From positions 1-42,133 of the forward strand of contig CANOVJ010000031.1 of the NCBI GenBank assembly GCA_947570615.1: DNA of 42,133 nucleotides. The letters run 5' to 3'. This document shows, in pieces, positions 13,540 through 41,853 of the stretch. Origin of the DNA: an uncultured Lachnospiraceae bacterium (lineage in GTDB: Bacteria > Bacillota > Clostridia > Lachnospirales > Lachnospiraceae). Position 1 is the first letter of the stretch. The number at the start of each line of letters is the position of its first letter. Made by a program: the position numbers and the translations under genes. Below the pieces are notes generated by a model. The model had not been told where the DNA came from. It was given only the letters and a program-made list of their open reading frames with translations, and searched no databases.

Positions 13540-13572
13540 TCAGAAGCCGCTCCGGTTCAGAGACGTTTTCGA

Positions 13573-13612
13573 TTACAATAAGCGCTCTCGCGGAGCGTGA
13601 CGGCGTTTGTTG
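13573..13612 (+). repeat. Palindromic repeat, family 1, copy A
   Basis: TTACAATAAGCG...CTCGCGGAGCG...CGGCGTTTGTTG. The outer arms (CAATAAGCG / CGTTTGTTG) and the inner CGCGGAGCG pair to make a hairpin. Near-identical copies occur at 16513-16551 and 41286-41326, a reverse-oriented one at 20198-20234 and a shorter relative at 40128-40164. Confidence 0.75.
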
Positions 13613-16490: not shown

Positions 16491-16512
16491 AGGTGTGTGA
16501 CCTCCTTTTTAC

Positions 16513-16551
16513 TACAATAAGCTGGCTCGCGGAGCGTGACAGCGTTTATTG
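16513..16551 (+). repeat. Palindromic repeat, family 1, copy B
   Basis: ACAATAAGCTGGCTCGCGG followed by AGCGTGACAGCGTTTATTG; arms CAATAA/TTATTG and internal GCTGGCTCGC/GCGTGACAGC pair imperfectly. It lies between the two ABC exporter genes, within the 5' region of the GTG-initiated gene. Copy C at 41286 differs at only about three positions. Confidence 0.8.
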
Positions 16552-16552
16552 A

Positions 16553-16591
16553 AACATAAGGATGGCTGGCGAAGCCTGGCATCCGTTGTTT
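16553..16591 (+). repeat. Palindromic repeat, family 2, copy G
   Basis: AACATAAGGATGGCTGGCG then AAGCCTGGCATCCGTTGTTT. The core GGATGGCTGGC-GAA-GCCTGGCATCC is an imperfect palindrome. It immediately follows copy B of family 1, forming a pair. The same sequence in reverse orientation occurs at 41434-41471 with only a few changes. Confidence 0.8.
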
Positions 16592-18455
16592 AGTCATAAA
16601 GGGAGAAAGCCGCCTCCCTCCGATACTGCTGCGCCTGCATCCGGTAGAGGCGCGCGTACTCGCCGTCGGCCGCCGTCAGCTCAGAGTGGGTTCCCTGCTC
16701 CGAGAGCCGCCCGTCCTTAAGGACGAGGATTTTATCCAGATCCTGCACAGAGGAAAGCCGGTGGGAGATGAGCAGGAGGATTTTCCCTCCTCCGCCTTCC
16801 TGCTCCTGCGCACCGCTCCCCGGAGCGTGGCAGCGTTTGATGCTTTCCATCAGAGCGTGCTCCGCGATTGGATCCAGCGCGCTGGAGGGCTCGTCGAAGA
16901 TATGCACCGGACTGTCCTGGGAAAAGGCTCTTGCGGCTGCCAGCTTCTGGTACTGGCCGCCGGATAATACCACGCCCTCCGGGTCGAATTCCCGTGTCAG
17001 AGAAGCCGCTCTGCCGCCAGGCAGACCTTCCACCGTGGAGAGGATTCCGGCCTTTGAAAGGGCGGAGGTAATGACTTCCTCCCCGCATTCACGCCCCATG
17101 GTCAGATTATCCCGGATACTCCGGGCAAAAATCTTTCCGTCCTGAAAGGCGGCGGCGAACAAATGCCGGTAGGCTCTCAGATTATATTCCCTGATGTTGA
17201 TCCCATTCACCAGGATTTCCCCCTCCGTGGGATCGTAAAAGCGCAGCAGGAGCTTGACCAGGGTGGATTTGCCTGCGCCGTTGTAGCCCACCAGGGCGCA
17301 CGTCTCGTTTTCCCTGAGCGTAAAGCTGATGTGGTGCAGGACCTTTCGCTGCCCGGGCTTATAGGAAAAGCTCACGTCCCGAAACTCGATGCTGCGAACC
17401 CTCCCCTGCGGAAGGATCCCGTCGCTGTCCTCCGGGATGGCCGGCTCGCTGGCCAGAAAATCCCGCAGGTTCTGAATGAACAGACTGTTTTTCATACTCT
17501 CCATCAGGGCTCTGGCGTATCCGATCAGAATCCAGGAGACGGAGGACATCAGAGTAGTGAGCACCGCAAAGTCGGAGAGAGACATGGTTTTTGACACCAT
17601 GGTCCGAAAAGCGCCGTAAAAGATCACGCCCTCGAAGATCACCACAAAGGTGAAATAGAGATAGCCCCAGCCCAGCAGCACATTTTTTACCAGATATTTA
17701 TCCATGGTGCCGGTGATGCCTGCCCTGGCATGCGCCTGCTTTTTCTCCATCACATGGAAAATGTCCGTCATGCGCAGCTCCTTTGCGTAATCCGCCAGAT
17801 GGATGACGCGGTTTACATAGTCCGCAATCCGACGGAAAATCACGGATTCCTCGTAGATTTTCCAGGAGAGCTTATTCAGGGCGCCGGCGAACACAAAGTT
17901 GCCGATGATGGGGGCGAGGGCGAACAGGATTACCCGGCGGTCGATGCGCAGCATCATCACCCAGGAGGCGGTCACCGCCCCGGTTCCGATCAGGATCTGC
18001 CACACGTTGTTGATGGTCTGGATCAGCCGTTTATCGCTGTCCGCCATGACCATCATATAGCGGTTATAAAAATCGCTGTCCTCGAAGCAGGCCAGGTCGG
18101 CGTTTGAGGCCTTTTTGTATAAGGTGTGGCACAGCCCCTGATAAATCGTCACATCCGTGACCGGAACCAGAACGTTTTCAAACCAGCCGTTGAACAGAAA
18201 GATAAGACCGCACAACGCCGCCGTGAAGAGTGAAAAGGCTGCGGGCTCCCGAAGGCCGGAGCCTTCCTCGATCAGGGAGAGAACCTTCTTTATAAAATAG
18301 CCGGAAAAATACAGCGACTCAAACTGGGTCAGGGCCTGACTTACCCCGGTAAGAATCACCCTCCGGGGGCAGATACGCAGGGCAAAGCCCATGATATACA
18401 GATTGTTTTTCACCGTCCGTCCGGCGTGTATCGATCGTTTCGTCCGTGTTTTCAT
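16590..18455 (-). CDS. ABC exporter, fused membrane and ATPase domains (half-transporter A) with repeat-derived insertion
   Basis: 621 residues from ATG 18455 (MKTRTKRSIHAG), which has GGAGG 5 bases upstream; an ATG at 18467 would add four residues but overlaps that site. Membrane domain ~1-340 with six helices, ATPase domain after ~355: Walker A GYNGAGKST, signature LSGGQYQKLAAARAF, Walker B VHIFDEPSSALDP, switch His in LLISHRLSSV. Between the D-loop and the H-switch (…ALMESIKRCHAPGSGAQEQEGGGG…) is an extra ~15-residue loop. The DNA for IKRCHAPG at 16821-16841 matches exactly 21 bp of the intergenic repeat at 20198-20234, so the loop seems to come from a family 1 element. All catalytic residues survive. 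First gene of the exporter operon, divergent from the LytTR regulator. Confidence 0.93.
   Translation of the reverse strand: MKTRTKRSIHAGRTVKNNLYIMGFALRICPRRVILTGVSQALTQFESLYFSGYFIKKVLSLIEEGSGLREPAAFSLFTAALCGLIFLFNGWFENVLVPVTDVTIYQGLCHTLYKKASNADLACFEDSDFYNRYMMVMADSDKRLIQTINNVWQILIGTGAVTASWVMMLRIDRRVILFALAPIIGNFVFAGALNKLSWKIYEESVIFRRIADYVNRVIHLADYAKELRMTDIFHVMEKKQAHARAGITGTMDKYLVKNVLLGWGYLYFTFVVIFEGVIFYGAFRTMVSKTMSLSDFAVLTTLMSSVSWILIGYARALMESMKNSLFIQNLRDFLASEPAIPEDSDGILPQGRVRSIEFRDVSFSYKPGQRKVLHHISFTLRENETCALVGYNGAGKSTLVKLLLRFYDPTEGEILVNGINIREYNLRAYRHLFAAAFQDGKIFARSIRDNLTMGRECGEEVITSALSKAGILSTVEGLPGGRAASLTREFDPEGVVLSGGQYQKLAAARAFSQDSPVHIFDEPSSALDPIAEHALMESIKRCHAPGSGAQEQEGGGGKILLLISHRLSSVQDLDKILVLKDGRLSEQGTHSELTAADGEYARLYRMQAQQYRREAAFSLYD
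16821..16841 (+). repeat. Palindromic repeat, family 1, partial copy E inside a coding region
   Basis: This 21-bp stretch (CGGAGCGTGGCAG, then CGTTTGAT) is identical to the reverse complement of bases within 20199-20219 in copy D. Here it lies in frame within the ATPase domain of the ABC exporter gene on the minus strand, encoding part of IKRCHAPG. Confidence 0.75.
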
Positions 18456-18533
18456 GTGAACCTCCATGTCGTGAAGTATGATAGTCAGTATATCTGATTC
18501 GGGAGAGAAAATCCAACCTGTCCCCCAATTCCC

Positions 18534-18633: not shown

Positions 18634-19455
18634 ATGATCAGAGTAGGCCTGTGCGACGACGAAAAGCCTTTGCTTGAAAAACTGAACAGCTTCGTGACAA
18701 CATACTATGGCGAAAACCGGATTTTTGCCAGAGTGCAGGCCTTTGAGAAGGGACAGAACCTGCTCTGGGAGATCGAGGACGGCGGCCGGTTTGATCTGCT
18801 GCTTCTGGATATCGAGATGCCCGGCATGGGCGGGATGGAGCTTGCACAGCGGGCGAAGAAGCTGTTGCCGGATGTGCTGATCATCTTTATCACCTCCCAC
18901 ATGGAATATGTGCTGGACGCCTATGAGCTGTCGGTATTCCGCTATGTGCCCAGGGCTGACCCGGGAGGGCGGCTTGCCCACGCCCTGCTGGACGCGGCGG
19001 CCATGGTGGAGGTTCAGCTCCGTGACAGCTATGTGATCCAGAACCAGAACCGGCTGGAGAGGATCCCTCTGCAGAACCTGCTCTATATTATCCACGAGGG
19101 CAAAAACGCGGTTCTCGTCACCAATCTTGCAGGGGAAAGGGATGGCGAAGGCGTACCGGGAGGCGGATGGGCCAGGCAGCGGGGCGGAGCCGAAGGCGCG
19201 GGCGTACCGGGGAGCTCCCGGGAAGGTGCGGGGGCACGCTTTAAGGTGCGCAAAACCCTCCAGCAGGTATATGCGGAGCTGGACGAAACGGAATTTTTCT
19301 TTATCGACAGAGGCTGCATCGTGAATCTTTCCAGGATTATGAGCATCCGGGAGGACTGCTGTATCCTGAAGGACGGTACGCGTCTGCCGGTGAGCCAGTC
19401 CAGGCTTCCCGGCCTGAAGGAGCGGCTTTTGCAGTTCTGGAAGCGGCATATCTGA
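18634..19455 (+). CDS. LytTR-family (AgrA/ComE-like) response regulator with a GC-rich insertion
   Basis: 273 residues from ATG 18634 (MIRVGLCDDEK); the frame is open further upstream but those codons cover the promoter. GTG 18619 is an alternative in-frame start but lies almost on top of the AGAGGAG site. Receiver: acidic pair CDDE, phospho-acceptor Asp59 in LLLLDIEMPG, Thr/Ser in FITSHMEY, VFRYVPR in place of the usual K-P region. The LytTR DNA-binding domain follows (RIPLQNLLYIIHEGKNAVLVTN, FKVRKTLQQVYAELDETEFFFIDRGCIVNLSRI, LPVSQSR). Between two of its strands, residues ~166-201 (nt 19129-19236) are an Arg/Gly-rich stretch (GEGVPGGGWARQRGGAEGAG...) absent from typical members, where a short turn is expected. 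Cotranscribed with the GHKL kinase that follows. Confidence 0.88.
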   Translation: MIRVGLCDDEKPLLEKLNSFVTTYYGENRIFARVQAFEKGQNLLWEIEDGGRFDLLLLDIEMPGMGGMELAQRAKKLLPDVLIIFITSHMEYVLDAYELSVFRYVPRADPGGRLAHALLDAAAMVEVQLRDSYVIQNQNRLERIPLQNLLYIIHEGKNAVLVTNLAGERDGEGVPGGGWARQRGGAEGAGVPGSSREGAGARFKVRKTLQQVYAELDETEFFFIDRGCIVNLSRIMSIREDCCILKDGTRLPVSQSRLPGLKERLLQFWKRHI

Positions 19456-20197: not shown

Positions 20198-20234
20198 ATC
20201 AAACGCTGCCACGCTCCGCAAGTCAGCTTATTGA
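20198..20234 (-). repeat. Palindromic repeat, family 1, copy D (reverse orientation)
   Basis: Read on the minus strand: ATCAATAAGCTGACTTGCGG, then AGCGTGGCAGCGTTTGATAT. Lies between the GHKL kinase and the isomerase-like gene. Shares 21 identical bases with the intragenic copy at 16821-16841. Confidence 0.8.
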
Positions 20235-20252
20235 TTTAAAAGAAAGGCAGGG

Positions 20253-41237: not shown

Positions 41238-41285
41238 GTTTTTCCTCCTGTTTTTCACTTTGCAGATGGCTTTTGGTTCAGCCTT

Positions 41286-41326
41286 ATTACAATAAGCTGG
41301 CTCACGAAGCGTGACAGCGTTTGTTG
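41286..41326 (+). repeat. Palindromic repeat, family 1, copy C
   Basis: ATTACAATAAGCTGGCTCACG followed by AAGCGTGACAGCGTTTGTTG; differs from copy B by about three substitutions, two of them compensating in the stem (CGCGG to CACGA-type change). Lies inside the long 5' leader of the DUF4430 operon. Confidence 0.8.
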
Positions 41327-41433: not shown

Positions 41434-41471
41434 AACAATGGATGCCGGGCTTTGCCGGCCATCCTTATGTT
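41434..41471 (-). repeat. Palindromic repeat, family 2, copy I (reverse orientation)
   Basis: On the minus strand AACATAAGGATGGCCGGCA, then AAGCCCGGCATCCATTGTT. Matches copy G at 16553-16591 apart from a few changes, including paired changes in the stem. Together with copy C it lies between the riboswitch terminator and the DUF4430 start. Confidence 0.8.
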
Positions 41472-41516: not shown

Positions 41517-41610
41517 CATAGTAAGGCCTGTTTTCGAGTTTGCCTGTACCATGACCAATTCCTCGTGATCGTTTCAGGGCTGCCAGAAAGCGGACAGCTC
41601 TGCGGTACTG

Positions 41611-41801
41611 ATATCCAGGCAGGTCTTCTGACTGAAAGGTCAACATCCCCTGCACCTTCCCATTTCCCGTACAGGCGCAACAGCGGCCTTGTACGTCAGT
41701 TGAAACAGTGGTATTCGCAGGGCACTCTCTTATCACAGCGACGAGATCGTACGGGATTTGCACCCGTTTCCCTTTTCACCCGAACCACATCCAAAATACC
41801 G
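41611..41801 (-). ncRNA. Cobalamin (B12) riboswitch
   Basis: Minus-strand RNA with the B12 box AGTCAGAAGACCTGCC (plus 41633-41618). Upstream are other conserved parts: GGGTGCAAATCCCGTACGAT near 41767-41748, GTGCCCTGCGAATACCACTG, and GGGAAGGTGCAGGGG. The ends (GGTATTTTGG and CCTGGATATC) pair as P1, with wobble pairs. It controls the DUF4430/ECF S operon downstream, most likely by cobalamin-promoted termination at 41485-41516. Confidence 0.95.
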
Positions 41802-41853
41802 GGCCTTCGGCCCAGTCCGGACGCATCGGACACCTGAATTCAATTCACGAGAA

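Follow-up and report, generated by a model that had tools for sequence, protein, structure and literature searches.

It is very probable that a dispersed hairpin repeat of about 36 nt was inserted in frame into the gene of an ABC exporter and that it spreads within these Lachnospiraceae genomes. The window, that is, the whole stretch of DNA analysed here (42,133 nucleotides), is part of a genome of 4.05 Mb that is 94.8% complete (G000); the assemblies are drafts, with G000 in 112 contigs and the relative G034 a MAG. This reading is carried by a dispersed family of copies, a palindrome with covarying arms, exporter orthologues with and without the insert that differ by a net 36 nt, and three further in-frame cases in G034. 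The relevant features of the window are:

16590-18467, minus strand: ABC exporter half-transporter (permease + ATPase), 625 aa, the host of the insert (ORF; PF00005, 1.1e-25; alignment)
16872-16886, minus strand: D-loop SSALD, residues 528-532, the upstream border of the loop region
16755-16769, minus strand: H-switch region ISHRL, residues 567-571, the downstream border of the loop region
16821-16841, minus strand: the repeat's 5' half, intact, translated as I-K-R-C-H-A-P at residues 543-549 (21/21 identical to 20198-20218)
16803-16838, minus strand: net 36-nt insert, drawn as KRCHAPGSGAQE, residues 544-555 (+12 codons relative to five empty close orthologues), its edges ambiguous by a few codons and the variable stretch reaching 16785
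16806-16819, minus strand: putative altered 3' arm GGAGCGGTGCGCAG, which nearly matches the 5' arm CTGCCACGCTCC at 16822-16833 in reverse complement (shuffle tests, post hoc)
20198-20235, plus strand: complete intergenic repeat copy, ATC...GAT subtype, between a GHKL kinase ORF and an AP_endonuc_2 ORF
16509-16551, minus strand: repeat copy, intergenic, between two exporter genes
13570-13612, minus strand: diverged repeat copy, AAC...TAA subtype
41284-41326, minus strand: repeat copy, AAC...TAA subtype

The minus-strand sequence at 16821-16841 (ATCAAACGCTGCCACGCTCCG) is identical over all 21 bases to 20198-20218 on the plus strand, as an earlier note on this DNA had pointed out, and the complete intergenic copy to which the latter belongs ends at 20235. 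In the minus-strand exporter ORF the repeat stretch is in frame between SSALD and ISHRL. The ATPase motifs (Walker A, LSGGQ, Walker B, D-loop and H-switch) are all intact in the 625-aa ORF, which matches PF00005, and the reading frame survives, as the note had also proposed. None of the 25 NCBIfam profiles among the matches listed for the exporter reaches its cut-off. At the insert site the window protein reads I-K-RCHAPGSGAQEQEGGGG-K-I and the G030 orthologue I-K-RDGSG-R-I, that is, 17 residues vs 5, a difference of 12 residues or 36 nt; the description of a loop between D-loop and H-switch where homologues have only a few residues is therefore accurate.

Six other close orthologues were aligned (60-72% identity by tblastn; the records with names are Lachnospiraceae). 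Five of them are free of the insert (L091, L092 from G036, L093 from G030, L094, and L095), and the sixth, L096 from G034, is filled at the same codon as the window. The G034 exporter contains a whole unit in frame (IKRCHASRAGLLT, with 3 of 36 differences to the consensus) followed by part of a second (RRCHTPQ), giving +17 codons vs +12 in the window. The insert is absent in all of seven distant homologues (L097-L103, 41-46% identity), in which the loop was sought as a possible refutation of its capture from the repeat, and the solved structure 8zpx (ABC transporter B family member 1), among the matches listed, has a 12-residue gap at the insert site in both ATPase domains. A family-wide exporter search at the very strict threshold of E <= 1e-190 returned 1 of 299, the window itself. 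Judged from these alignments, the exporter insert is real, limited to two of the seven close orthologues, and one unit long in the window. The proposal that a small palindromic element adds in-frame protein sequence is supported by the net +36 nt in the window and by the G034 unit at the same codon. The term "repeat fragment", used previously for the window insert, suits the 21-nt match but understates the event, in which the net gain equals one unit whose 3' half is unrecognisable.

The family to which the 21 nt belong is large. An 18-nt repeat core occurs at up to two mismatches in 49 copies in the G000 genome (29 forward and 20 reverse), vs 0 matches in the whole genome for the core pattern read backwards, and a chance-level match, raised beforehand as a possible objection, is thereby countered. 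At up to three mismatches the window contains 5 matches to the core where 0.05 are expected. Among 13 other genomes of the genus, copies were counted in G032 (112), G034 (92), G001 (79), G011 (24), and G006 (13), with 0-7 in each of the remaining eight; the totals for G001 and G032 are counts at two mismatches, and the reversed control pattern gave one match in this genus count, in G036. A 2-mismatch match to the core also lies inside a gene of G003 (L084), presumably that of an ordinary ABC-F protein, so that single 16-of-18 matches may be due to chance; the window match is 21/21.

An ordinary codon duplication in the exporter loop, with chance or convergent likeness to the repeat, is an explanation to which we give hardly any credence. 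The 3' half of the insert is Gly/Glu-rich and unlike the repeat, and another loop of the exporter also varies (a 26-residue Gly/Ser stretch in L092 of G036), but chance likeness is contradicted by two findings: all 21 of 21 bases agree with a family for which the reversed control gave 0 matches in this genome, and the G034 orthologue carries a whole 36-nt unit at that codon. The reverse direction, with coding sequence of the exporter as the source of the repeat family, is similarly improbable. The element starts with ATCAAA, and these bases are already present as I-K codons in four of the five empty close orthologues; nothing of the repeat beyond ATCAAA is found at the empty exporter sites, however, and G001 and G032, with 79 and 112 copies, have no exporter homologue at E <= 1e-60.

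Alignment of the copies gives approximately 38 nt in common and two subtypes, ATCAAACG...TTATTGAT and AACAAACG...TTATTGTAA. AAC precedes 31 of 50 copies in G000 and ATC 12 of 50, and in G034 ATC precedes 84 of 105. Mutual information was calculated over all position pairs of 209 distinct copies, taken from four genomes and recognisable at the 3' end, by a statistic that ignores relatedness among copies. The top pair is 2-37 (T-A in 103 copies, A-T in 59), and the stem pairs 3-36 and 10-28 are third and fourth; the second, 2-38, is no stem pair and mirrors the two subtypes. The other listed stem pairs are intact in 84-98% of copies, except for 1-38, which is kept in just 41%, so the element corresponds approximately to positions 2-37, or 36 nt. 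We take the repeat to be a hairpin family with maintained pairing. The folds of four units as single-stranded DNA did not stand out from those of shuffles (z from -1.62 to -0.09), and the covariation is the better evidence for a hairpin.

The unit length also appears in the spacing of adjacent copies: of 21 pairs in the G034 loci that were fetched, 18 have a distance of 36 nt, and all 5 pairs in G000, one of them an ATC pair, have one of 37 nt. With regard to a MITE of a DDE insertion sequence, the palindromic ends of the repeat are clear, and a 34-nt core with an AT duplication or a 36-nt element without duplication would both give a net +36 nt. In an Rfam scan of the window, the gathering threshold is reached by just two features, a cobalamin riboswitch and a cut-off tRNA.

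The repeat is presumably mobile as such. Its size, palindromy, arrays and intergenic bias would also fit an ordinary REP, mobilised by a RAYT (Y1 tyrosine transposase), and Y1_Tnp matches occur in 21 of 37 genomes of the genus, with one each in G034 and G032. Even so, this origin is unlikely: a PF01797 profile search found none in G000 despite its 49 copies, the flanks of 20 of 34 Y1_Tnp matches contain no clear repeat copy (two weak matches at 4 mismatches), and GTAG and CGTC are both absent from either strand of the consensus. Phage carriage was probed by searching viral contigs for one exact repeat pattern, with 0 matches. A G034 copy pair 1.5 kb apart, considered as the ends of an insertion sequence, was rejected, as it encloses an ORF instead, presumably glycosidase-like.

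The mechanism that we favour is thus a unit that spreads within these Lachnospiraceae genomes, probably without a RAYT. In the exporter it would have inserted at the isoleucine codon ATC after the D-loop segment, and the insert would have been retained, being 12 codons long, free of stops in the frame used, and set in a loop tolerant of extra residues; its effect on the exporter may be nearly neutral. Most copies are located between genes, with a few surviving in frame and becoming protein sequence. Coding-like open frames on both flanks, which may be different frames, are found for 2 of 48 copies in G000, 6 of 105 in G034, 1 of 48 in G001, and 1 of 38 in G032, compared with 258 of 440 random positions in the G034 loci. 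The copies avoid coding sequence, as expected if selection removes most genic insertions.

The same insertion in other proteins, to which the earlier note had looked for support, is found in AddB, an ECF transporter and a nucleosidase-like protein of G034; in G000, where 50 copies were surveyed, none but that of the exporter is a convincing internal case, so the generality of in-frame capture rests on one relative. For G034, 105 of 135 copies were fetched and both flanks were scored for coding in one open frame, which yielded seven internal candidates including the exporter. Besides the exporter, three candidates were compared with relatives (L147, L175, and L141 were left out of the comparison).

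AddB is the counterpart of RecB. The G034 protein reads LFPALKI-KRYHASQGSILD-ENT vs LFPSLKI-ENT in G036, a difference of exactly 12 codons (+36 nt), and its identity is given by TIGR02773 (E = 4e-240; 799.7 bits, obtained with a partial ORF, under the cut-off of 903.7). The element is present in one of 30 aligned AddB loci, that of G034 alone; the alignment comprises 30 of 36 matches, and the G014 match, 18 codons longer than most, is among the six left out. In G034, the S component of an ECF transporter (PF07155) exceeds by 37 residues its G000 counterpart, in which the two matching halves abut, and the stretch is absent in all of 11 homologues. Two units can be recognised in it at a distance of 36 nt (2 and 6 of 36 differences); the remainder, of approximately one unit length, is not recognisable as repeat. 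The third protein is weakly nucleosidase-like (PF01048 and TIGR03664, both below cut-off). At its second site there are exactly 12 extra residues (+36 nt), absent in 10 of 10 homologues, and its first site lies within a variable stretch. The checked sites differ from one of the two unit consensuses at 2-8 of 36 positions, and the best of 1000 random 100-nt pieces of the window differs at 16. Partial samples of G001 and G032 (51 and 52 copies) gave no convincing internal case: the unit likeness of the G001 candidate L320 is confined to the 5' half, and L297 (G001) and L285 (G032) are further candidates outside the comparison.

We also noticed AddB variation of other kinds. The G003 protein (L217) has in the same loop an unrelated tandem duplication, with SRVNHNAF present twice, and the G000 protein has five extra residues near the element site of G034. 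Copies are found at protein termini as well, at least two of them in G000. There, a PP-loop protein (PF01171, L012) runs on into element-coded TNAVTLREPAYCN... at its C-terminus, and the ORF of L121 ends in IIKRCHAPRVSLLNKKRG. Apparent multi-element proteins of G034 have copies at both the N- and the C-terminus (L141), one internal and one C-terminal copy (L175), or two internal copies (L335).

The subtype seen in the checked proteins is the ATC type, of which two forward frames are open. Read directly, the AAC...TAA type has a stop after TTATTG in the frame used by IKRCHAP. One may speculate that a frame-compatible form, the stop-free ATC unit with its 36-nt period, has taken over in one lineage; each insertion would then be exactly 12 codons, so that the element could colonise coding sequence repeatedly in 12-codon steps (one unit in AddB, two in the ECF transporter), and the same exporter codon would have been hit independently in two species. 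We consider this scenario possible but on the whole doubtful, and given the few genomes and small samples, the frame-compatible form is put forward as a hypothesis for why captures are found in G034.

Apart from that scenario, we lean modestly towards separate gains of the exporter inserts of G000 and G034, that is, two hits. A single gain in their common ancestor with later loss in G036 (and perhaps in L091) is a substantial possibility: the insert is at the same codon in both, the exporter protein tree does not reject a G000+G034 clade (AU p = 0.124), and the 21 nt of the window are identical to 7 other G000 copies but also to 4 G034 copies, so the sequence alone cannot tie each insert to its own genome. 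Against a single gain, the codon-DNA tree of the exporter rejects this clade (AU p = 0.021, the base composition of G000 being flagged as odd), the AddB tree places G034 with the empty G036 (93/89) and G000 outside, and the exporter trees group G034 with G036 weakly (75/86 for DNA, 82/94 for protein). An earlier exporter tree that left the five closest rows unresolved is superseded by these codon-DNA and protein trees. The two inserts also differ in make-up, and the variable base of CTYCG is in each the commoner one among the ATC-type copies of its own genome, a weak sign: C is found in 11 of the 13 G000 copies, counting that in the exporter itself, and T in 67 of the 93 G034 copies. Since G036 is empty, there was either a clean loss in G036, which would require exact excision, or the site was hit twice, and with ATCAAA pre-existing in most empty close orthologues the same codon could be favoured.

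In the window insert, the 5' half has kept its identity with the family and the 3' half appears to have changed beyond recognition. In the latter, no similarity to the 3' half of the repeat could be detected (0.25 of shuffles score as well), nor any to the remainder of the G034 insert (0.50 of shuffles). The origin from a full unit thus rests on the length match and on G034. Aligned with two gaps of one base each, the 3' stretch is similar to the 5' arm of the same insert in reverse complement; the fraction of shuffles scoring at least as high is 0.037, or 0.0052 if the arms are required to adjoin. This is a post hoc reading against shuffles that preserve base composition only. Hairpin-templated copying during replication is the process known as quasi-palindrome mutation, and we infer that it may have altered the 3' arm. 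The DNA fold of the window insert is no better than those of shuffles (z = -0.50), and a 20-mer through the changed half, searched in 40 genomes including G000, matches in the window alone.

Palindromes that encode protein sequence are known mainly from Rickettsia and Wolbachia. The present repeat shares two of their properties: it is a dispersed palindrome, and it has in-frame insertions in conserved genes that are absent from the orthologues of relatives. According to passages of two papers, Rickettsia palindromic elements (RPEs) are fused in frame into many proteins, and a host guanylate kinase is still active (PMC10969869, PMC2229807). RPEs as described there and the present repeat are alike in being small palindromes that occur both between genes and in frame inside conserved protein genes, to which they add residues (PMC10969869, PMC2229807). 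Classic RPEs are given as 105-150 bp and are from Rickettsia, whereas the present unit is 36 nt, from Lachnospiraceae, and mostly intergenic, the likeness being one of description and not of sequence. Nearer in size are RPE-4 and RPE-6, which the consulted part of PMC3733652 treats as REP-like CGTC elements. For Wolbachia, another genus in another phylum, protein-coding palindromic repeats are named in the title of a paper cited in PMC2229807.

REPs, as characterised in the same part of PMC3733652, are palindromes of 20-40 bp, single or grouped, mostly intergenic with some inside ORFs, in all of which they are like the present repeat. Intragenic REPs of the GTAG and CGTC superfamilies are there reported to include many in DNA repair genes, recBCD among them, and in one case two species have REPs at roughly the same position in recB (PMC3733652); here, an exporter codon is common to two genomes and AddB is also hit. 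Unlike those REPs, the present repeat has neither a GTAG nor a CGTC tag, and no linked RAYT was found in G000 or among the 20 of 34 Y1_Tnp matches examined. The searched text of PMC3733652 contains no Firmicutes, Clostridi- or Lachnospir-. Correia (NEMIS) elements of Neisseria, as outlined in an extract of PMC2229807, have 107-bp and 155-bp forms, the open-frame form occurring within genes and the stop-bearing sister almost only between them. The parallel here is the ATC type in the checked proteins and the stop in the AAC...TAA type; the present unit is much shorter and from other hosts, and is likened to Correia elements by description, not sequence.

The present family acts like RPEs and intragenic REPs, in Lachnospiraceae. 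Since the tag is absent and a linked RAYT was not found in the loci examined, and since RPEs are likened to it by description alone, we regard it as a member of neither family. Among open-licence PMC papers, we found no earlier report of such elements in Lachnospiraceae. If our reading is true, gut Firmicutes also have protein-coding palindromes, and theirs is a unit of no more than 36 nt, a length that by itself preserves the frame. Filled and empty orthologues are then available, along with copy numbers from 0 to 112 among 14 counted genomes of one genus.

Some further observations concern the surroundings of the repeat. A sister palindrome (AACAACGGATGCC-GGCTTCGCC-CATCCTTATGTT) with similar ends and a different stem is located at 16553-16590 on the minus strand and 41434-41471 on the plus strand (2 window matches vs 0 in 100 shuffles), and adjoins the main repeat in several loci. 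The cobalamin riboswitch (RF00174, 92.9 bits; 41601-41818, minus strand) lies approximately 280 nt from the repeat copy at 41284-41326. The Gly/Ser-rich stretch of L092, about 26 residues long, follows MGRE in the other loop of the same ATPase domain, and is absent or much shorter in the other 13 aligned proteins. Finally, at 19120-19245, the LytTR response regulator ORF has between its two domains a Gly-rich linker with the near-repeats GEGVPGGG and GAGVPGSS.
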